64,000 bases of DNA, from positions 62,001 to 126,000 of the forward strand of contig LGRX02035493.1 of the NCBI GenBank assembly GCA_001247695.2, read 5' to 3'. Below the pieces are notes generated by a model that was given only the letters and a program-made list of their open reading frames with translations, was not told the DNA's origin and did not search any database. Both the position numbers and the translations under genes were made by a program. Below, piece by piece: positions 14,833 through 44,951 of the stretch. The stretch comes from Cymbomonas tetramitiformis (taxonomy: Eukaryota > Chlorophyta > Pyramimonadophyceae > Pyramimonadales > Pyramimonadaceae). How positions within the stretch are numbered: the first letter of the stretch is position 1; each line of letters begins with the position of its first letter.

Positions 14833-15208
14833 CCCCCCGCTATCAATCCTCGGAAGCTCAAACACGCAAGTGCGCACCACCTCTTCAAGCGTCGCTTAGC
14901 CAATCATGGCCAAGATAGCAAGTGGAATAAAAGCGTGGATGGGGCCACGACCCTACCGGAATATCCTAGTTCACTAGATATCAGAGGTCCCGAACTGTGT
15001 GTGGATAAACTGTGTCAAGATAAATAAACCCTAAGCTAGATATACCCGGAACGGTCTCGGACGGTCTCGGAGTCTAGCCTACCTGTGACACAGCGTGTGT
15101 CACAGCACGAACCTATAGATCAGTTAGCAGTCCAGTGTTGGCCTAGGAGTCTGTCATAGGGGCCTGCACCGGGACTCCCGGTCAGGGCTGCCTATACAGA
15201 TTTCAGCA
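14833..15208 (-). mobile_element. 5' end of a Gag-only LTR element: LTR, primer site and leader
   Basis: The minus strand from 15208 to 14954 is a 255-bp LTR (TGCTGAAATC...ATTCCGGTA) nearly the same as those of the element at 41377-44940. It is followed by GGTCGTGGCCCCATCCACG and about 100 bp of leader. It is cut at about 14833 where the chromovirus LTR ends, so one may have inserted into the other. No TSD is visible because the other end is missing. Confidence 0.8.
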
Positions 15209-29838: not shown

Positions 29839-32800
29839 GCTGGAGAGGCTTGAAGACCCAGTAGTTCTCTACTTCTAGAAGCGGTGAAAGCTTTAGGTGT
29901 TATTTTGGAAATGTCTTTAGTGGGGGCGGTGTTATTCTCGTTGAGCATTCTCAGGTACTTCCCTTGGGACTGCAGAGTTCTCCAATTATGTTAGTGTGAG
30001 AGTCGTTGAATTCTTCTGATGTGACTACGGATATCGCCTAAAATAGGGACCTCAAAAAAGAATAATGAGAAGGGTAGTTCCTCGGCAGGGTCGTAGCGGG
30101 AGATGTCTAAACAGCCCCCTCTGAATGAGGCTCTTTTAGCAGTACGGTCCACTCTGTCATGGACTTTGTCATTATTGTGACCCCTGATCCATTTAAGGAT
30201 GATTTTACTGTGGTCTCCTTCACTGTAGAAGCCAAGTTCTTCTAGCAGTGGGCGAACAGCCTGCACATCTCTGCTATTAGCTTCACGTAGTTTGTCCCGA
30301 GCACTCATGAATCTGCCATCCTTTGTTACAGCAGATATTGCAGCCATGGAGTCAATGGCATGTACCATTGGAGTCATGGATTTGAGGAGTTTCTCTTTTT
30401 GTTCTGTGAGTAGAAATCGCAGTCCCGCAATTTCAGCAGATGTACTACTCGGGTTTTGGATATCTTCCTTGATAAGAAGCCCAGGTGCGGAGAAAGTTCT
30501 TGAGGGGGGGATATTCATCTTCCGAACAAGTGGCATTCCGTTGTCAAAGTTTTTTATGGCATATGCTGCACCACTGCATGCTGTTTTCTTGCCAGCAAAT
30601 AGAGAACCATCGCTTGCCATATCATAATCTTCCATTTGTTTGCTCTTTTCGGCGTTGGGGGTAGATTCTTCTTCCGAGTCGCTAGGACAACTATATTTGC
30701 TGGAATTGGCACTACGACTAGTTCGTACAGTCTAGTGTCATTCCCAGTGTGTCATCTTCGGTGGTCAGCCTGTGACACTCAGCTCGGGTATATCTTGTGT
30801 TTTACCCAAGCTTAGTGATCCGTTGTTTCACCGTCGGCAGCGGGTCCCCACTGCCTGTTCAGCTGTTTCCAGCAGGTTATGGGCCCACCACGCTTCCACT
30901 GCGCTGGGACACTGGGACACTGGGAATGACACTAGACTGTACGAACTAGTCGTAGTGCCAATTCCAGCAATATTCACTTTCTTCCTCCGCAGTTTTGTTT
31001 TTCATTCTGGCAATAATGGTCTCATACTGTCTGTATGAGATGTAATCATAGTGTGAGTTAATATCACTGACTTTAGCAAGGACAGAAGAGGGCGGGTCCA
31101 TATGGTCATTATATTCGAAAATAGAACCTGCGGGAATTAGGATGCAACCGTCATTGGTGATGCTATATTCAAAGTCGTATTGAAAACTGTTGGTTCCTTC
31201 GATTCTGACAAAGACATTAGGGTTTATGGCATTGTTACTGTATTCTGTATATTGTATTGACATGGCCTCTAAGTCAATATTGGTAATGTGAATAAGAGAG
31301 ATGGAATTTCGGTCACCATTTCCTTTCCAATGAAACTCTCCCGTATCAGGGGGTACTATGTTGTCTCTATATTGTTTCTTGACATATCTGGCCTGTGGGT
31401 CCAAATCTACAGGGTTTTGAAGCATTTCCTTTTCGATTTCGGTTAGCCATCCAGGGGGTCTATTACCGTTCAGCCTGAAAAAGACTTTACTTTCTTGCCA
31501 GTTTTTTAACATTCCACCACAGGGAGTCAGAAAGGAACCTGTGTGCTTGAGGTCATATTTTTGTATTGCGGAGGTAACATTCCTCGACATGTAGAGTTGT
31601 CTGGGAAGGGTGGTGATTAATGTGGTTTCACCCGCTTCATTTTCAGGGTAATTTTTAGAGTCGATAGCGTATCCAAGTTTTGCCATAATGTGACCTATAC
31701 GCCTAAACCAGTTAAAGCGTTTGTCTTTTGTGTGACTGTAGGTTGCATAGTGTGATAGGGGGAAGCCCGAGATGGCATTTTTACCCATTTCGTTGTTCAT
31801 GTTTTGAATTATTATTTTAAGCCATAGATTGCTGTTTCTACGGTATAGTGAGATGAGGTGGGGATCAGTGATACGGTCCGTGTGGTTGTGTTGCCAATAT
31901 TCGTGTTCATCTGCAGAACACAGGGTGTTCATAGTTTCAGTAATATACACGACGCGGTTACAATATCGAAGACACTATCAATACCGTACCCGCCTTGGCA
32001 GACTGCTGTCCAGATTATTTGGTGATTAGTGTCAACTGGGCAGCCCAAATATTTAATTATAAACGAAGCTATCAATTTGTCTAATTCAATTGCGACATTC
32101 TTTGAGGAGTTGGCAATTGCTGAGGTAACTTTAAGGGGGTACGCCATCCTCGGAACTACAACCGCATTTATAACATATCTTAGCTGGTGTAGAGTCATGT
32201 GTTGCAGTTGGATGGATATTAGAGTAGATTTAAGTCTGTCAATAAGGATTTCCGCCTGTTTGTCCCATTCCCCATTTAGTGCAAACCATACTCCGAGGTA
32301 TCTGTTTACCTCTTTGCTGTTGGAGAAATCGAGAAAATCTGGTGACTCAGGGGGTATCCATTTCGAATCAATGGAAGGACTTGAGGCATTTGTATTGGGC
32401 TCCAGATGACCCCCTGAGATGAGTAAATCATCGGACAGGTCATATCGCGTTACCATTTTGCCCTGAAATTTGATGCGCTTTCTGTAAGAGTATTTGGATT
32501 TCTTAACATTGATGGGAATGCCGATGAAGCTCATAAATTCATTAACTATACCTAGCATGTCTTGAACTTCGTCTTTAGTTTTCCCCACGAGAATGATGTC
32601 ATCACAGAAGAACCGTGCAAAGATATTTAAAGGGGTGTCCTTTTCTAATAGGTTTTGAGAGGGAGGAATAACATTATTCCCTGGTTTGTCTGGTCTATGG
32701 CGTTCCGAGTTCAGTTCATATCCATATGTGGTTCCTGTCGGGTTTGCACCGTTTGCTCTTTTTGCTAACCAAATTGCCAGAATGTCCATAATGGCTACAA

Positions 32801-34452
32801 ACCTTAGTGGGCTCAAAACTTCTCCCTGAGCTCCACATTCGAGGGACCATTCATCCGTGAGGCCTTCTTCAGTAAGTACCATTCTAGAGGCATCACTGGT
32901 GATGTCTGAGATGATGTTAATTATTTGTGATGGGAGTCCTAACTTTCTGAGCGCTAAATTGCTCATCCAGAATTCGGCTCTGTCAAATGCTTGTTTGAGG
33001 TCCAGGTAAACTACGTGGAGGTCTTTGTCGTATCTATTGGCATCCGAAATTACTTCATTCAAAATTTGGAGTGAGTCATCTATGTTTTTATTCGGAAGAA
33101 AGGCATCTTGAATGGGAAAGAGAATGGGGTGGGTGTTGAGTATTGTTTTGAGACGGTTTGCAATTATTGTGTTAAATAGTTTAAGACCCGTTTCCAACAT
33201 TGCAAGAGGTCTGGAATTTTCTATTGTACATGGTGCAGAGGGGTTTTTAGGGATTGGAAGGATGACTCCAGATTTTGCACTCTTAGGAAATCTCCCAGTT
33301 ATAAGAATGTGGTTAAAAAGTGAGACAGTAACTTCTTGAAAATTCTCTGGGCCCTTGATCCACTGCGAGTATCCGTCATTCCTGAGGGTCCTGGTGCTGT
33401 GGAGATACCACAGTCCGAGTATGCTTGTTGAAGTTCTTTGTGCGTGATTTCTGTCAATAGTCTCGCGCGGCGGCCGTATCGGGGATTTTAGGGCTATCCT
33501 TGAGAATGTCATTGAGCCACTGTGGGAGTTCATCTGGCTCATTCGGGTTTGTAGAAAATAATTTTTTATTTTTGTATTCATCTAGTGTTGTGTTTAGTCT
33601 TTCTGTTTTTGTCTCACTCAGGTATATTTCCATCACCTCCTGGGGTTGCGGCTGCACCTTTTTCAGTAGGTTTCATCTTTCCCATGACTGTGTCTAGAAA
33701 CCTCGAAAGGTTAGTTGAGAAAAGATGCTGCAGGGTTTCTTTTTCTCGGAGTTTGCGTCGTTCAATGTCTGTGTCTCTGCTTTTCTGAAAGGCATTTCTG
33801 ATTATTACATAATTTTCATGCAATCGTAATCTCCATGTGGCTGCTGCTTCATTATGTTTGGGTTGGAGCGAGGCAAACGGTAGTGTGCGGGCAGCCTTTT
33901 TGGCTTGCTTTGGAATGTTGCTATCATGAGTACTTGTATCCAAATATTTGATGGTGCGGCGTACTGTGTTTAGCCATTTGTATATATAGTTAGATACTGC
34001 TGATGGTTTTTCGGACCTCCCAGTTTTGTTCAGATTCTTGGTGCCAAAGGCGTCACTTGCCGCCTGATGTGCCAATTTGTGCAGGGTATCCCATGTCGCG
34101 TCAGGGTGCATTTCCTTGAGGCCAGTGCCGCCGTTTCTAGCTGCTTCAGATCCATTTTCCATTTCGAGTGTCCTATGTAGTCTTTCAGTGTAAGACACCC
34201 AGCCTTTAGCGTATTGGAATAAATGGGCAGTGCAGTCTATTTTTTCCGAATGTATCTCAGATCCGTACAGGTTCCAGAATTTAGCAGGCATATGAGGTTG
34301 TAGAAGAATATCCCAGCTGGTCATGTGATCATCTGTGCTGGATTTCGTGATTTTCTTAACTTCCAGTGAGCTGAATGAAAGGTGTCGTTTGAGATAGGCA
34401 TTTACATCTTTCTTATTTAGAAGGTGAGGCGAACCTATATGCCAGATGTTAT
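29839..34452 (-). pseudogene. LINE ORF: endonuclease end, RT, RNase H
   Basis: The frame is open at 34452 and enters near the end of an endonuclease (STDDHMTSWDILL, the place of the SDH motif). A linker follows, then STAPGPSG, then RT: SGVILPIPKNP, RPLAML, DLKQAFDRAEFW, a GAQGEVLSP block and FCDDIIL in place of the usual YADD. RNase H lies at 30635-30050 with DGS, an E after SS.SAEIAGL, D in IDSMAA and D in HDRVDR. There are frameshifts near 33625, 33460 and 33385, and an in-frame TAA at about 29991. A 272-bp insertion separates the RT-distal part from RNase H. It copies its RNA by target-primed reverse transcription when intact; this copy is dead. Confidence 0.85.
30698..30969. mobile_element. 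272-bp fold-back LTR product with 48-bp inverted ends
   Basis: It is flanked by ATATT at 30693-30697 and 30970-30974. Bases 30698-30874 are a full 177-bp LTR like that at 41201-41376. Next comes GGTTATGGGCCCACCACG, a primer site (30875-30892), then about 30 bp of leader, and then 30922-30969, the inverted first 48 bp of the same LTR. It is therefore not a solo LTR, which would lack the primer site and the inverted end. It sits in the LINE ORF, and removing it restores the frame. Confidence 0.85.
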
Positions 34453-34645
34453 TGCTGGATTCAGTGACCCGTAGGTCATAACTTACTCTGACTCCCGATA
34501 GTTGTACCAGTACTCGTACAGTACTAGGTGACAGATACCTAGGTCACAGACCGCCTTATATTCGTTTATCTCTTATAATCAGTTTACACTTGTATGAAAA
34601 GTATTCAGTGACCACCCGATATAATACGGTATATTATATCTCACA
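34453..34645 (+). repeat. Left LTR of short Gag-only element
   Basis: Starts TGCTGGATTCAGTGACC and ends ATATCTCACA before the primer site. The first 160 bp recur at 35761-35922. Confidence 0.85.
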
Positions 34646-34663
34646 GGTTATGGGCCCACCACG
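34646..34663 (+). promoter_or_regulatory. Primer-binding site GGTTATGGGCCCACCACG
   Basis: The first 13 bases are the complement of TGGGCCCATAACC, the anticodon arm of initiator tRNA-Met. This half-tRNA priming mode is known for copia and Ty5. Confidence 0.75.
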
Positions 34664-34805
34664 CTTCCACTGCGCCAGTGTCCCAGGACGATTGTAACAC
34701 GGCGCAAAGTCCCTGCGGTCTGCGGCTACGGCTGCACAGGTCCGTGGTGCTACCGCCGCAGGTAAGCAACCACCGCTGCACATCGGTACTCTGTCTGTAC
34801 CGCAG

Positions 34806-35459
34806 GTGGTATGCGATGCGCCACCACCTGTCAATCACGAGATCGACACTGTGCTATACCCTGTTTCGGCATCGGACCCCGCTTCTTTCGGGTCTCCTTT
34901 CGAGGAGCCACTACGTGTCTCTTTTATGGACCGTATAATGCCAACATGCCCTGACACGTCTCTTAAATTGTGCTCGATTGACTCGGTTCACGAGTCGATT
35001 CACCCGGGAGAGCTTTCCGTGATCGACGATGACTACGACTCCGACGGCTTTTCTTATTCCGGAGACGAGATTCCCTCGGCCACACCGGCTACACGGTCAC
35101 GTGTCGGTGTGGCAACATTGCCGAGGGTCTTCTCTTTCGCATCTCTGGCCCTGCCCGCACTCATGTGTCTTGCATGTGTGTCAGCGGTTCAGGGTTCGGT
35201 GGTGCTCGATCGAGCCGCTGAATTCACCGCAGCAGTACATCCCACTGGGGTGACTGCCAACAGTCTGTCTGCCTTGCCGTACACTTTCCCTTTCGGCAGG
35301 CCTTTTCCTTTTGAAGTTTCGGCAGGCTTGGACTCGGATTTTCACTTTTGTGGATTCCTGAATTTGCTCTACGAGTCTTCTTCTGGACTCTGGCTTCTGG
35401 ATTATGGTTCTGGCTTCTGGTTCTGGACTCTGGTTCTGGACTCTGGTTCTGGATTATGA
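34806..35459 (+). CDS. Reduced Gag-like protein with hydrophobic module
   Basis: A frame of 217 codons; the first ATG is at 34926 and the earlier part may be reached by splicing, since GTAAG at 34761 and CCGCAG at 34805 are present. It lacks capsid core and knuckle. What remains is an acidic stretch (DDDYDSDGFSYSGDE), then RVGVATLPRVF and a hydrophobic segment (ASLALPALMCLACVSAV), then a tail ending in Gly/Trp/Phe-rich repeats from CTGGTTCTGGA units (35380-35480). The acidic-plus-hydrophobic order matches the C-terminus of the Gag at 42030-44357, so this looks like an internally deleted element that kept only that module. Confidence 0.5.
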   Translation: MVCDAPPPVNHEIDTVLYPVSASDPASFGSPFEEPLRVSFMDRIMPTCPDTSLKLCSIDSVHESIHPGELSVIDDDYDSDGFSYSGDEIPSATPATRSRVGVATLPRVFSFASLALPALMCLACVSAVQGSVVLDRAAEFTAAVHPTGVTANSLSALPYTFPFGRPFPFEVSAGLDSDFHFCGFLNLLYESSSGLWLLDYGSGFWFWTLVLDSGSGL

Positions 35460-35760
35460 CTTCTGGACTCTGGTTCTGGTTGAACATCTTTGACACTGAC
35501 AACTTCTTCAACTCTGGTGAACTCTGCAACTTTGTAGACCACTTTGAAAGTGGCTGAGTATCTGCAAATTGAGCTGTAGGAACTTAGCTTGAAAGCAGTA
35601 TCCTAGCAGCAGTTTTAGAAAGGGACCGCCCTGGCTAAAGCACAGGCCTCCCTCTAGCAGTTTCCAGCTCCTAGCTGTTTGTTGTTTCGGAACAATTTGC
35701 TTTGTCTGTGCTCCGCTCTCTGCCACCTGTAACAGCACTATGTACAGTCACAGGGTGGTG

Positions 35761-36160
35761 TGCTGGATTCAGTGACCCGTAGGTCATAACTTACTCTGAC
35801 TCCCGATAGCTGTACCAGTACTCGTACAGTACTAGGTGACAGATACCTAGGTCACAGACCGCCTTATATTCGTTTATCTCTTATAATCAGTTTACACTTG
35901 TATGAAAAGTATTCAGTGACCATCGAGGTTCTAGGTTTAGGTTCAACAATCTGTCTTCGTTATTATCTTTTATCACAAGTTATCTATCGGAAATACCGCG
36001 CTCTGACTGTTAACTGAATTATCACACCCGAGATATACCGGTAGTATATCAGTAGGTCGTGGCCCCATCCACGTTTTATTTTCCACTTCGGATCGTTTGG
36101 CCATGATTGGCTAAGCTTGAGTGGGTGGTGCGCCCCATGAGGACAACGTGTTGAACGCCG
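35761..36160 (+). mobile_element. LTR plus leader of a further Gag-only element
   Basis: 35761-35922 matches the short element's LTR. 35923-36050 is different sequence ending CACCCGAGATATACCGGTAG. GGTCGTGGCCCCATCCACG and a leader like that at 41631-41725 follow, including GGCCATGATTGGCTAAGC. The leader stops near 36160, so only the start of the element is left. Confidence 0.65.
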
Positions 36161-39170: not shown

Positions 39171-39433
39171 CGTGTTACCCCGACTGCACGATGTGGAAGT
39201 ATGGGGGATTACCCCCTGACAAACAGTATTGAAGTCGGGGGAGGGGTTCAACCCCCAAGTCAAAAATTGAGGGTTTGGGGAGGGTTACCCCCAAGACCCA
39301 AAAAGCAGGTCTAGGGAGGGGTAGAAAAATGTCTCGTGTTGGGGGGGCTAGGGCAAAGTGTGGGCACAGCCGTGCTTTCACAGATTTAGTGATTTACCTC
39401 GCATCTCTCGCTCGGGTGGCATGCGTATGTGTA
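39171..39433. other. Short stretch, nothing recognised
   Basis: It contains repeated GGGGTTA/ACCCCC phrases (39230-39300). It ends in GTGTA, the target duplication of the next element. Confidence 0.4.
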
Positions 39434-39608
39434 TGCGGAGGAACAGCTCGGCAAGTGGGGACCCGCTGCCGACGGTGAAACAACGGATCACTAAACTCGG
39501 ATATACAAACGATATATACCCGAGATGAGTGACACAGGCTGACCACCGAAGATGACATACAGGAATGACACTAGACTGTACGAACTAGTCGTAGTGTCAA
39601 TTCCAGCA
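39434..39608 (-). repeat. 3' LTR of minus-strand Gag-only element
   Basis: A 175-bp match to 41201-41376. The distal end (TGCGGAGG) has diverged from TGCTGGAA. Confidence 0.88.
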
Positions 39609-40055
39609 CACCACCTCATCTGAGGTGGACCAGCTAGTGACACTCACCACCCTAGCTACTAGAGTTTACAGAGAAATGTCAAGATGTTAACTCTAGGGAG
39701 CTAGTCAAAGTCACAGGTGGCAAGATGAATGTACAGGCTAGCAAAATAATACTGCTAAGCCTAGGAAATTGCTAGGACCATTCTGGTCTGCTAAAATTAA
39801 TGCTCTGCCAGCTAGTGGTGGGTGTTCCCACAAATCTCGCCTGTCTGCATGTGATGGAGAATGCTAAAAGAATTCCGCCTGTCGGTTTAGCTTTGATATC
39901 TCTGCGAACTGTAAGGTCTCTTGCCATAAAAAAATGTTCGTCTCAATCGGTAAAGCTGCCCGCTAGTGGTGGGAATTTCAACAACATCCTCTGCCCAAAA
40001 CTACAGCAAGTGGTGGAGAAATGCCGAAAGGAACACCGCCTGTCTGTTTAAAGAA
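39609..40055 (-). other. 3' untranslated part of minus-strand Gag-only element
   Basis: No frame is seen. GCTAGTGGTGGG..TTC phrases are repeated three times at about 40-170 bp spacing. The CACCTCA/TGAGGTG hairpin adjoins the LTR. Confidence 0.55.
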
Positions 40056-40964
40056 CTAATAGTAGTCATCATCAGAATCGTAACTAGCATCATCCTCACA
40101 ATAAGAATCTTCATCATAAAATTCTGCACCACCAGTTCCAACGGAATCGTGGGCTCCTGCCTCCCAGGCAGCCCACTCCTCTGCGGTGTAGACATCCTCT
40201 TCGTCCACAATAGGCTCACCCTCAAAAGAAAGTGTGCCCACATGAAACTCACTCTGCGGTAAAAACTCTTCCCCAAGTGGGGCCTCGAAACTTCCGCCAT
40301 AAGAATTCTACTGAAAACCCGTGTCCAGCTCGAAATCCCGTTCCAATCGATCGGACGAAAAATGCGGAGCGGCCAAGTGGCCATTGTGCTCTTCCTCTTC
40401 CTCACAACTGCCATCGGAATCGTCGAAATACCCAAGTGGGTACTCCGATTCATCCTCATCCTCACTAGGCAAATACTCCTCATAACTGTGAACAACCCCA
40501 GAGCCCATATAGGGAGGTACAATGGGAGGCGCATGGACATAGTGAACTTCGGTTACCACAGGAGGGGCCTGTGGCACCATCTCGCTTGCCCTAGTGGCAC
40601 TAGGCAAGGGTCTAGTGGTGGAAACCTGAGTCGAAACTGATTTTGTCGCCAAAAGAGCCGGCGATTCCCCCACTCCAACATCGCAAAACTTTCCGTTCGA
40701 AATTCCAGAAACAGCGGTCTCGGCCGAAACACCACCAACTTGTGGCTCACTAGCCACCAAGATGTTCAAAACTATCGGAGAATTCTCGGTCGAAACTGCC
40801 GAAATCTGAGCCGCCTCACGGAAATGCGAAATAGCTAAATGCATGGAAGAGCATAAAGAGGTGAGTTGAGATCTCTTGAGAGTTGAGACTCTCGCAAAAC
40901 CAGTGTCGATAGATCCCAAAAGAGCTAGGAGCTCTCCACTCTCCAAAATCTGCGCTGAATTCAT
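40056..40964 (-). pseudogene. Acidic Gag-related protein with one in-frame TAG
   Basis: From the ATG at 40964 (MNSAQILESGELLALL) a single frame of 302 codons runs to 40056, broken only by TAG at 40308-40310. The N-terminus is helical. The middle is Ser/Thr/Pro-rich with VHYVHAPPIV, comparable with VHYTHASFVPGS in the Gag at 42030. The rest is very acidic (SEDEDESEY, CEEEEEH) and ends YDSDDDYY. No zinc knuckle is present. The lone stop could be a mutation or a readthrough site. Confidence 0.5.
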
Positions 40965-41182
40965 AATCGAACAAAGAAGCGAATACAAATCCAAATAAAG
41001 ATCGCAAACGAAAAATCGTCGGAGAGCACCACCTCGTCGAAATCACCCAAAGCCGTAAGCAGCCGCCTCCAGAAAATACGTAGAATCTGTTCTAAAGCGT
41101 CCCACAAGGCGTGGAGACGCTTAACCGAAAGATAGGGCGGAAATAAAATAAAATTCTACGCTAAAATTCAGTTCACGCGAAC

Positions 41183-41200
41183 GTGAGAGGGACCATAACC
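41183..41200 (-). promoter_or_regulatory. Primer-binding site GGTTATGGTCCC
   Basis: On the minus strand, directly after the LTR. The first eight bases match the initiator tRNA-Met anticodon-arm complement. Confidence 0.6.
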
Positions 41201-41376
41201 TGCTGGAAACAGCAGCTCAGGCAGTGGGGACCCGCTGCCGACGGTGAAACAACGGATCACTAAACTCGGATATACAAACGATATATACCCGAGATGAGTG
41301 ACACAGGCTGACCACCGAAGATGACATACAGGAATGACACTAGACTGTACGAACTAGTCGTAGTGTCAATTCCAGC
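41201..41376 (-). repeat. 5' LTR of minus-strand Gag-only element
   Basis: Runs from TGCTGGAA (41201) to TTCCAGC (41376), with the last base displaced to 44946 by the nested insertion. The ends form an 8-bp inverted repeat TGCTGGAA/TTCCAGCA. Confidence 0.88.
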
Positions 41377-41631
41377 TGCTGAAATCTGTATAGGCAGCCC
41401 TGACCGGGAGTCCCGGTGCAGGCCCCTATGACAGATTCCTAGGACCAACACTGGACTGCTGACTGATCTGTAGGTTCGTACTGTGACACACGCTGTGTCA
41501 CAGGTAGGCTAGACTCCGAGACCGTCCGAGACCGTTCCGGGTATATCTAGCTTAGGGTTTATTTATCTTATACAGTTTATCCACACGAGTACGGGACTTT
41601 CTGATATCTAGTGTACTTGGATATTCCGGTA
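41377..41631 (+). repeat. Left LTR
   Basis: 255 bp, TGCTGAAATC...ATTCCGGTA, same length as 44686-44940. Confidence 0.92.
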
Positions 41632-42029
41632 GGTCGTGGCCCCATCCACGTTTTCATTCCACTTGCTATCTTGGCCATGATTGGCTAAGCAGCCGCTTGA
41701 AGAGGTGGTGCGCACTTGCGCGTTTGGGTGCGACTAGGATTCGGACATGATTTTACGGTAGACGTCCTTTGCGGCTGCGAGTCATGGGCACCGCGCGTTG
41801 CTATTGCTCGGTTGTGGCAATGTTCATTTACGTTGTTTTACCTGCCCTGATCCCGCTGGTTTACGTATTTTGGGCTGGTGCTCCGGACGCCTTCGACCAC
41901 ATCGACATTTGCAAGTGCCCCACGCTCTTTTCGCCGCTCCGCACGTTCTGCCGTTACGTCATCCCTCCATTTCCGCCACAACACCCAAACGTGCTACCGC
42001 GCATCATCTTTTCTCTGGCTTTCAGAAGA

Positions 42030-44357
42030 ATGGCGACATCTACACGAGCTCGCAAACGCCTATTGAAGGACTCCGACTTGGACGCCTCTATACGGCTTTT
42101 GGATGCGGTTCGGGACACTCCGACCGCTAGCACTCCACCTGTGGTGCCCCCTGCTGTTTCCAGCAACTCCGACACCGCTGTCGCGTTGCGGAAACATCTT
42201 GTTGACCAGCACGCCGCTGTTGACGTGGTCTACAAGGGGAGGTTGCATCGGGCTTGGGCCAAGGGTATCCGCGAGGATATCCTTGGTTCCAAGAAACATC
42301 ATTATCGTGGTACTGACGACACCGACCGCCTCTCCGAGTTGGTGGTGCAGCTTCGGACCGAGTTTGAGTCCGCTGGACTGGACTTGACCCCCTTTGACCT
42401 CGACGACCCAACCTCTCTGGTTATCGAGAAGGTGAATGGGCTTCTCTATGACGTCTTGGCCCTCGTCGTGGAGCGGAACTCTGTGGCCGACACCTGGCTT
42501 CGGGGTACGGACTCTTCGGCTGACCGAGATGGGCGTCGAGCTCTCATCGACATCATCAAGGGGAGCGTGCCGGCGTTCTTACGCGAGAGCCACCAGCAGG
42601 AGCACGCAGCGCTTCGTTATCCCGCAGGCGTTGACCCGCAGCCGATCTTGGCTCGTGAGCAACGTCTGGTGCGGGATAACCGCGCTCCTGACTGGCGGCC
42701 CACTGACGAGACCCGCAAGCTCTCGTTGTACAACCGCCTCGACCCGGTCTTCTACGCGGCTGTGAAGGTGCGATATCCGCTTGCGGGTGACCTCGGCGGA
42801 GTTACTCTCCGCTCGCTGCAAGCTCTCGTCGTGGCCATCTTCCAGGCATGGGCACAGTCGGACGAGGGGGCGTCGGCACGTGAGAAGCAGGTGCTGGGGG
42901 TGGACGGTAAGCCCTCCGCTCTGGTCACGTCGTCGGAGTACACGGTACTCCTCGAGGAGATCGCGGCCTTAAAGGCCTTGGTGCGAGGTGGCCGTGCGGG
43001 CGGGGGACAGCAGCCGCAGCCGCAGCATCGGGGGAAGCAGCATCCGAGGGGGTTTCGCGTGGGTGCAGGCAACCCCCCCGCGGTCGGCTTTGACCGCGAC
43101 AGCATGAGAGCGAAGCCGCTGTGCCACCGCTGCCGCAAGGCCGGTAAAGGTGAGGTATATCACCCGTATCGCGACTGCCCGCTTGGCGGTCGCCAGCACT
43201 CACCAGCCACGGCCGCGGCTTTCTGCATTCCCATTGAGCAGGAGGACGCGGAGGGCCTGCACGCATTGGCGCTCGTGCAGGTCTTCCAGGACGCGGCGGA
43301 CAGTGGACCGGAGGCCTTCTCGCATGCGGCGTTGGCGTATGGTCCACCCGCGGTGCTCTCCGCGGACGGCGTCGGTGGGATCGACGTAGCGGCCTACGGG
43401 TTCAGCGTGCCGCCTCCGCCTTCTGGCGGGACCGACGACGAGGACATCTTGCGGCGGCTTGATGCCCTCACCTCTGAGGTTCAGGCCGCCCAAGAAAAGG
43501 TACATTACACTCACGCATCCTTTGTTCCTGGGAGTGCGGTTGAGGAGCATGCGTCGGCTCTGGTGTGTGGCCCTGCCGCTGCGGCGGGGATCACACCGGA
43601 GGGGCAGGTTCCGGCAGGTGGTGCGGCGGCATCGGCGTCCGCCGTGCCGGCCCCTGCTATGCCTGTTTCGCAGGCGAAGGATGTACGGCCCGCGCCAGTT
43701 CAATCGGCGCGGGTGACCACCACAGAGGCGACATGCGGTGAGTTCGGAGGCTTCGTGCAGACGGTGAATCACGCCGCCGTCCACCCCTCTGACCTGACAG
43801 GCTATGACACGGACGACTACGAGGATTACGCCGACGGTACTTTCGCGGTTAAGCCGCGGGCTCCGTCCGGTGCTGTCGGATGCGGTGTGCCGCCTTTCGG
43901 CTTCGGCACTCCGGCGATCGGCGCTCTCGCGGTGCTCTCTCTGTTGTGCATTTCTTTTGCAGGTGTATCTGCTTCGGCGTCCACAGCTTCTGCTGTGTCG
44001 GCATGTGCACCGGCTACGGAGGTGCCTTCGCCTGGTGGTGATCTCGATTGGGAGGCTCCGTCATTTTTCTCTACGAATGATTTTCTTGATCCGGTGATGA
44101 CGGCTCAGGGTCTCCTGTTGCTTGACGATGTGCCACAGCTTCAGCCGCCCGAGCCTCCTGACACTTTGAGCTTTTTAGCATTTCAGGATTTGGCTCAAGC
44201 GGATTTGGGTATTGACATGGCATTCTACTACGGCATGGCCTTACATGAGAGCGGACCTCTGGATGTTCAGCACTACTACGGTGCTGGTTACTTTACTTCC
44301 TACTATGGGATGGACTTCCGTGAGGCCACCGCTGACTACTTTGATACTGTCGATTGA
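42030..44357 (+). CDS. Gag protein with zinc knuckle and C-terminal hydrophobic module
   Basis: A 775-residue protein from the ATG at 42030 (MATSTRARKRLL). The frame is open 87 codons further upstream, but the sequence TTTTCTCTGGCTTTCAG just before suggests a leader splice acceptor, and the related Gag at 22500 starts in the same way. A capsid-like helical core (about 60-300) has NGLLYDVLALVVE and RDGRRALIDI. A coiled-coil-like EEIAALKAL is followed by a basic region. The knuckle CHRC..H..RDC (CX2CX9HX4C, about 365-385) binds RNA in this family. Then come an Ala/Pro-rich stretch, an acidic TDDYEDYADG patch, GCGVPPFGFGTP, a hydrophobic segment (IGALAVLSLLCISFAGV, about 627-645) and a Tyr/Asp-rich end. 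There is no protease or RT. The hydrophobic segment is unusual for Gag. Confidence 0.8.
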   Translation: MATSTRARKRLLKDSDLDASIRLLDAVRDTPTASTPPVVPPAVSSNSDTAVALRKHLVDQHAAVDVVYKGRLHRAWAKGIREDILGSKKHHYRGTDDTDRLSELVVQLRTEFESAGLDLTPFDLDDPTSLVIEKVNGLLYDVLALVVERNSVADTWLRGTDSSADRDGRRALIDIIKGSVPAFLRESHQQEHAALRYPAGVDPQPILAREQRLVRDNRAPDWRPTDETRKLSLYNRLDPVFYAAVKVRYPLAGDLGGVTLRSLQALVVAIFQAWAQSDEGASAREKQVLGVDGKPSALVTSSEYTVLLEEIAALKALVRGGRAGGGQQPQPQHRGKQHPRGFRVGAGNPPAVGFDRDSMRAKPLCHRCRKAGKGEVYHPYRDCPLGGRQHSPATAAAFCIPIEQEDAEGLHALALVQVFQDAADSGPEAFSHAALAYGPPAVLSADGVGGIDVAAYGFSVPPPPSGGTDDEDILRRLDALTSEVQAAQEKVHYTHASFVPGSAVEEHASALVCGPAAAAGITPEGQVPAGGAAASASAVPAPAMPVSQAKDVRPAPVQSARVTTTEATCGEFGGFVQTVNHAAVHPSDLTGYDTDDYEDYADGTFAVKPRAPSGAVGCGVPPFGFGTPAIGALAVLSLLCISFAGVSASASTASAVSACAPATEVPSPGGDLDWEAPSFFSTNDFLDPVMTAQGLLLLDDVPQLQPPEPPDTLSFLAFQDLAQADLGIDMAFYYGMALHESGPLDVQHYYGAGYFTSYYGMDFREATADYFDTVD

Positions 44358-44685
44358 CTTCTTGCTCACTCTGGAGGCACACCAACATGGTGGTGTGCAG
44401 AACTCCTGTGACTTCAAAGACTTCTTCAATCTGGTTTATGTTTTGCTTTGACACCTTTGAAATCTTCACTTTGACTTGCTGGCACAGAGCCTTTCAGTGG
44501 TTTAGCAGGACCTTAATTGCCTGTGAGTTTCTGCTCTTGTGCTAGCTAGAGGGTTCTAATTTGTGTATCAGAATTGCACAGTTGGATTAGCAGTTGGACT
44601 TGTCACCTAGCTCCTGCCCTAACACTAACAGCCTTACATTTTCTGACTCTCCTAGCCAGTCACCACCCACAGTGCTGGGGTGGTG
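44358..44685 (+). other. 3' untranslated region and polypurine hairpin
   Basis: Contains GACTTC/CTTTGAC-rich text without coding features. CACCACCCACAGTGCTGGGGTGGTG ends at the LTR and forms a CCACCC/GGGGTGG hairpin. Confidence 0.55.
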
Positions 44686-44940
44686 TGCTGAAATCTGTAT
44701 AGGCAGCCCTGACTGGGAGTCCCGGTGCAGGCCCCTATGACAGATTCCTAGGACCAACACTGGACTACTGACTGATCTGTAGGTTCGTACTGTGACACAC
44801 GCTGTGTCACAGGTAGGCTAGACACCGAGACCGTCCGAGACCGTTCCGGGTATATCTAGCTTAGGGTTTATTTATCTTATACAGTTTATCCTCACGAGTA
44901 CGGGACTTTCTGATATCTAGTGTACTTGGATATTCCGGTA
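44686..44940 (+). repeat. Right LTR
   Basis: 255-bp partner of 41377-41631. Confidence 0.92.
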
Positions 44941-44951
44941 CCAGCAGTGTA

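Follow-up and report, generated by a model that had tools for sequence, protein, structure and literature searches.

A 272-bp LTR insert with an inverted U3 end in a Cymbomonas tetramitiformis LINE: a probable product of strong-stop DNA

A 272-bp insert (positions 30698-30969) in the 64-kb window, i.e. the whole stretch of Cymbomonas tetramitiformis DNA that was analyzed, starts with TGCTGG, ends with CCAGCA, and has ATATT on either side. It consists of a complete LTR, a primer-binding site (PBS), a short filler, and the inverted start of the same LTR. We consider the insert to be probably a strong-stop-derived product that was inverted before it integrated; our working verdict is a one-off copying accident and not a proven new mobile element. 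For the updated assembly of this species, GCA_001247695.2, an excerpt of its description gives a size of 914.3 Mb, with 15.3% LTR elements (PMC10675990).

Anatomy of the insert and its target site

The coordinates proposed in an earlier, sequence-only reading are exact, with the TSD copies at 30693-30697 and 30970-30974. When the insert and one TSD copy are removed, a 568-aa LINE frame is open across the junction, whereas with the insert present this frame runs into a stop inside the insert. Restoration of the frame fixes the edges, and the frame around the target must therefore have been open at the time of insertion. The LINE overall is already divided among several ORFs; its reverse transcriptase is recognized in the adjacent ORF at 31932-33581 (RVT_1, PF00078; E 8.7e-20), and a weak RNase H match, below the curated cut-off, lies within 29994-30635 (E 0.0022).

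The inverted LTR start reported earlier is present, but it measures 53 bp instead of 48 bp: the arms at 30698-30750 and 30917-30969 are identical at 53 of 53 positions (54 nt if the flanking T/A, which belongs to the TSD, is included). We listed the perfect inverted repeats of at least 14 nt in the 64-kb window whose starts are separated by less than 400 bp; there are eight, and the arms of the insert are the longest, the runner-up having 23 nt. Pairing TGCTG starts (85) with CAGCA ends (99) at a spacing of 100-5000 bp gave 6 pairs with arms scoring at least 10, and a perfect 5-bp TSD was found only for the insert among these 6. No second copy of the insert was detected in the 64-kb window, and the insert itself has neither a PPT nor a direct second LTR.

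Because the right arm is inverted U3 at 53 of 53 positions and lies flush with the TSD, the inversion predates integration; the flush position also points to the inverted U3 end itself as the integrase substrate. The earlier proposal that integration used two LTR termini agrees with the TSD and the exact edges. Identical inverted termini extend over 8 bp in the LTR family of the insert (TGCTGGAA); in the two other LTR families of the window that were compared, they extend over 2 and 1 bp. With termini of 8 bp, the integrase of the family may fail to distinguish U3 from U5 ends, a U3-U3 pair then passing as U3-U5.

Table 1 Coordinates of the insert, its target, and related elements in the window.
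Feature	Position	Strand	Remarks
TSD, left copy	30693..30697	.	ATATT
Complete LTR of the insert	30698..30874	+	177 bp, TGCTGGAA...TTCCAGCA; 8-bp perfect terminal inverted identity
PBS of the insert	30875..30904	+	Reverse complement of initiator tRNA-Met (iMet) nt 10-39; half-tRNA, copia-like priming
Filler	30905..30916	+	12 nt, TGGGACACTGGG, within a GGGACACT repeat
Inverted LTR bases 1-53 (U3 start)	30917..30969	-	53/53 identical
TSD, right copy	30970..30974	.	ATATT
LINE frame broken by the insert	29991..31950	-	568 aa, open at the empty site
Second small LTR element	34453..35922	+	Same 30-nt PBS at 34646-34675; CCAGTGTCCCA at 34675-34685
Related small LTR element	39434..41376	-	Two LTRs, PBS-like site, ORF, PPT-like tract, TSD
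Its 5' LTR	41201-41376	-	Outermost base shifted to 44946 by nested element
Its PBS-like site	from 41200	-	Directly after the 5' LTR
Its ORF	40308-40994	-
Its PPT-like tract	39609-39617	-	GAGGTGGTG, just before the 3' LTR
Its 3' LTR	39434-39608	-
Its TSD	39429-39433 and 44947-44951		GTGTA (plus strand)
Gag-only LTR element nested in the small element	41377-44940		LTRs 41377-41631 and 44686-44940; TSD CCAGC

The LTR, its relatives, and the primer-binding site

The 177-bp part is an LTR, as had been claimed. It is 90.4% identical to 41201-41376, and its bases 1-155 are 91.0% identical to 39454-39608; both regions are LTR sequence of a single small element. It has TG...CA ends, a PBS abuts it, and the related repeat flanks the TSD-bounded internal region of that element. 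The sequence-only reading had named two outcomes that would speak against it, namely that the 177-bp part is not an LTR or that the repeat is that of an ordinary MITE without relation to an LTR, and neither was found.

The two LTRs of the related small element are 98% identical overall (39444-39607 vs 41213-41376), with strong divergence in their last ~22 bp (39434-39455 vs 41201-41222), and close to the integration joint its 3' LTR appears to have a changed U5 end. A gag-only element landed just inside the outer end of its 5' LTR, leaving two LTRs back to back, and one GTGTA copy is displaced because of this insertion. The 862-aa ORF product of the gag-only element (41769-44354) has 57 C. tetramitiformis relatives among the matches listed, the best with 93% identity, from 7992 candidates scored. 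For the ORF product of the small element itself, 15 relatives were retrieved, 12 of them from C. tetramitiformis; three relatives (P0059, P0060, and P0061; 44-54% identity) are on contigs of 1.7-2.1 kb, about the element's own size. Patterns made from this product and from P0059 matched 34 and 33 viral stretches, respectively, none of which was confirmed by tblastn. In the second small LTR element, at 34453, just 162 of the 193 bp in the 5' LTR have a counterpart in the 3' LTR, and no matching TSD was seen at the right end.

Directly after the LTR of the insert, GGTTATGGGCCCACCACG adjoins at 30875, as had been read before. The 30-nt PBS agrees with the reverse complement of iMet nt 10-39 at 29 of 30 positions for the plant tRNA and 28 of 30 for the human one, both being working sequences, not that of this alga; ARAGORN recognized both as tRNA-Met. 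The tRNA homology ends at nt 10/9, and the PBS complements the plant iMet inward from the anticodon loop, not from the 3' CCA end. Such half-tRNA priming is the mode of copia. The window gave no Rfam match at gathering thresholds, and positions 30600-31070 gave none with E up to 5, so that the derivation of the PBS from a tRNA is based on the comparison with these two working iMet sequences. No iMet gene was found in the window by ARAGORN, which detected one tRNA, for Lys.

The position of this boundary has a possible explanation in the modification of the primer. The base m1G prevents Watson-Crick pairing and commonly halts reverse transcriptase. Mouse iMet has m1G9 according to an excerpt of PMC11347157, and half-tRNA priming by iMet is mentioned in an excerpt of PMC5371799. 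Copying of the primer could stop at nt 9, the position of m1G9 and the next base past the PBS. Given such a stop and the end of tRNA homology at nt 10, the length of LTR plus PBS is as expected for plus-strand strong-stop DNA, and the strong-stop origin suggested by the sequence-only reading gains support from a PBS that ends where the tRNA homology ends.

The PBS of the element at 34453 agrees with that of the insert at 30 of 30 positions. At four other PBS-like sites in the window, ungapped matches to iMet cover 14-18 of 30 positions. It counts against the favored explanation that the full-length element most similar to the insert carries another PBS (18/30 vs iMet) and that in a study of Ty1 the primer tRNA sequence was reportedly not inherited, as does the lack of an Rfam tRNA match at 30600-31070. 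The primer sites of the small elements (41182-41200, 34646-34675, 41632-41650, 36055-36073, and 14934-14952) range from a near-perfect iMet complement to GGTCGTGGCCCCATCCACG (14-15/30), the latter common to three loci, which suggests that in some families the PBS is inherited despite mismatches with the primer. Searches with the PBS, a 26-mer of the LTR arm, and an iMet pattern gave 0 matches in the viral contigs scanned, and the PBS gave 0 in the GTDB genome contigs scanned, sets from which near genomes may be left out. An autonomous partner (copia-type pol, integrase before reverse transcriptase) was not identified in the window.

Origin of the inverted joint

We favor an explanation in which reverse transcription of a small LTR element, primed in the manner of copia by half an initiator tRNA-Met, went astray. 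Plus-strand strong-stop DNA, comprising the LTR and a tRNA copy to nt 10, would have failed to move onto the minus strand at the PBS complement. Instead, its 3' end would have joined the U3 start of a plus strand through short imperfect pairing and a 12-nt templated filler. The best candidate for this partner is another nascent plus strand that had stalled at ~53 nt; the molecule's own 5' part is less likely. Extension of both 3' ends would give a short linear duplex with the PPT-defined U3 end TGCTGGAA at both termini, and integrase may have taken U3-U3 as a normal end pair and inserted it into the LINE with a 5-bp TSD.

The partner is the point at which this explanation departs from the sequence-only reading, in which the copying strand snapped back on itself. 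An inversion before integration holds, but self-folding of a single strand is not established, as a hairpin offers one duplex terminus. Two plus strands joined 3'-to-3' and copying each other would give the identical sequence as a blunt duplex with two termini. Since a hairpin gives one duplex end and insertion with a TSD needs two, we lean modestly towards this 3'-to-3' joining over self-folding. Both the intramolecular route and the second alternative considered below overlap with the favored explanation, and the probabilities that we attach to them do not sum to one.

In the intramolecular route, the 3' end would fold onto its own U3 and form a 53-bp hairpin that is later opened and copied. 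It yields the same sequence, and the 53/53 identity of the arms is expected from self-copying. Among 173 sites in its own LTR, the strong-stop 3' end (...CTGCGC) pairs best at base 50 (GTGTG), a position that falls within the inverted arm (bases 1-53); a strand extended from this point would read TGGGAATG..., the inverted arm. This pairing, which counts for the favored explanation as well as for self-folding, is weak, with two G-C and three G-T pairs, and 4.0% of random 12-mers equal it at base 50; of 58 3' ends tried at this base, one (insert base 196) scored better (9 vs 7). Against the route stand the further opening and copying that a hairpin needs for two-ended insertion and the filler itself: pairing at base 50 predicts none, whereas the real joint has two more 8-nt GGGACACT units, a difficulty that the favored explanation shares. 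We regard self-folding as possible but doubtful.

Neither the exact parent nor its leader was found, and the filler could therefore derive from the parent's own leader, which counts against the favored explanation. The earlier statement that its sequence is the complement of a related leader proved correct: in the element at 34453, CCAGTGTCCCA spans the border between PBS and leader, starting with a C that is the final PBS base, and in the window it occurs on the other strand only at 30905 and 30913, both within the insert. Read as reverse complement, the filler agrees with this border at 11 of 12 positions, compared with 8 of 12 when read directly; among 5000 shuffled leaders, one equalled the inverted match. 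The match supports the favored explanation, in a comparison that was picked post hoc. The repeat can be explained by copying that alternated between leader and LTR. As a source of the filler, slippage within the LTR by itself was judged weak by eye, with the bases beside CCCAGTGT pairing poorly with TGGG.

A second alternative takes the filler as ordinary, not inverted, leader. The plus strand would have run past the PBS into a parental leader ...CTGCGCTGGGACACTGGGACACTGGG, set its 3' end ACACTGGG on CCCAGTGT, and copied U3 back. Here no filler mechanism is necessary, and the repeat unit is a perfect complement of LTR bases 46-53, so that a native leader ending in ACACTGGG would prime there with 8 perfect pairs. 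However, the only related leader with the same PBS fits the filler better in inverted orientation, by the counts given above, and the break at tRNA nt 10/9 would be due to chance. This reading appears unlikely. The two readings of the filler differ in what they predict after the PBS of the parent, namely a leader CAGTGTCCCA... if the filler is inverted leader and TGGGACACTGGG... if it is plain leader.

We think it very unlikely that the insert belongs to a replicating miniature family with inverted LTR ends mobilized in trans. Both termini are of the integrase type and come with a TSD, and LTR elements down to 292 bp occur across grasses, as stated in an excerpt of PMC3281118. On the other side, the window holds the insert in a single copy, and a transcript with neither direct 3' LTR nor PPT should not finish a normal cycle.

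Inversion and deletion after integration, of one normal element or of two, is highly improbable and was rejected: nested and truncated elements are found nearby, but a breakpoint exactly at the LTR/TSD border would be needed, and the flanks and the TSD are intact. Inverted chimeras occur in nanopore- and Illumina-type reads. A fold-back chimera of assembly or long reads is nevertheless the least credible origin and was likewise rejected, even though the updated assembly is a nanopore/Illumina hybrid (PMC10675990), as neither TG...CA termini with a TSD nor a passage from inverted U3 into a different right flank, in frame with the left one, would be expected from it.

If the favored explanation is correct, the insert has captured in the chromosome a step that genomes seldom show, namely the 3' end of plus-strand strong-stop DNA, and this end lies where a modified tRNA base is expected to halt copying. 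A U3-U3 end pair would then have been integrated in vivo, and a signature searchable in any genome would follow, i.e. an LTR, a PBS that breaks off at tRNA nt 10, and U3 in inverted orientation behind it. Some short inverted-repeat insertions labelled MITEs may be aborted LTR cDNAs. It is a long shot that, in LTR families whose LTRs have an identical inverted sequence at both ends, failed plus-strand transfer regularly gives U3-U3 strong-stop molecules accepted by integrase, which would form a whole unrecognized genomic class, some members maybe remobilized in trans.

Comparison with known systems

Like a solo LTR, the insert contains one complete LTR within a TSD. Solo LTRs, which arise by LTR-LTR recombination, end in U5 and have no PBS or inverted U3. 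This assignment was rejected for the insert, in which a PBS, a filler, and an inverted arm come after the LTR. With MITEs it shares short length, terminal inverted repeats, and a TSD; an ordinary MITE was rejected too, given that the ends are the U3 end of an LTR, not those of a DNA transposon, and the core is LTR plus PBS.

The resemblance to copia and Ty5 lies in the PBS, which directly follows the LTR and is complementary to the 5' side of iMet, beginning at the anticodon loop, whereas the insert is an incomplete product for which the window has no identified autonomous partner. TRIM and SMART elements are similar in size class, in having an LTR, a PBS, and a 5-bp TSD, and in that no coding capacity is seen. 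These classes are defined by two LTRs in direct orientation that enclose a PBS and a PPT; the insert, in contrast, has no direct second LTR and no PPT, and its second arm is inverted and 53 bp long.

The sequence-only reading had known of no named class with this structure, a view that needs qualification. An excerpt of Gao et al. 2016 (PMC4717578) describes a Zma-SMART array in maize with two inverted TRIM units within one 5-bp TSD, and the combination of inverted LTRs with a shared TSD is thus already published and not new. The literature matches listed contained no account of a partial strong-stop product in which a single LTR and a PBS bounded by the tRNA are followed by a short piece of inverted U3; this argues weakly that none has been described. 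The maize array and the insert have in common short non-autonomous LTR elements, an inverted arrangement, and a single 5-bp TSD. In the array, however, TRIM units are inverted, over 559 bp by the printed coordinates (PMC4717578), whereas in the insert the inverted part is just 53 bp of U3, joined to one LTR and its PBS, and the break falls where the tRNA sets the end of the PBS.
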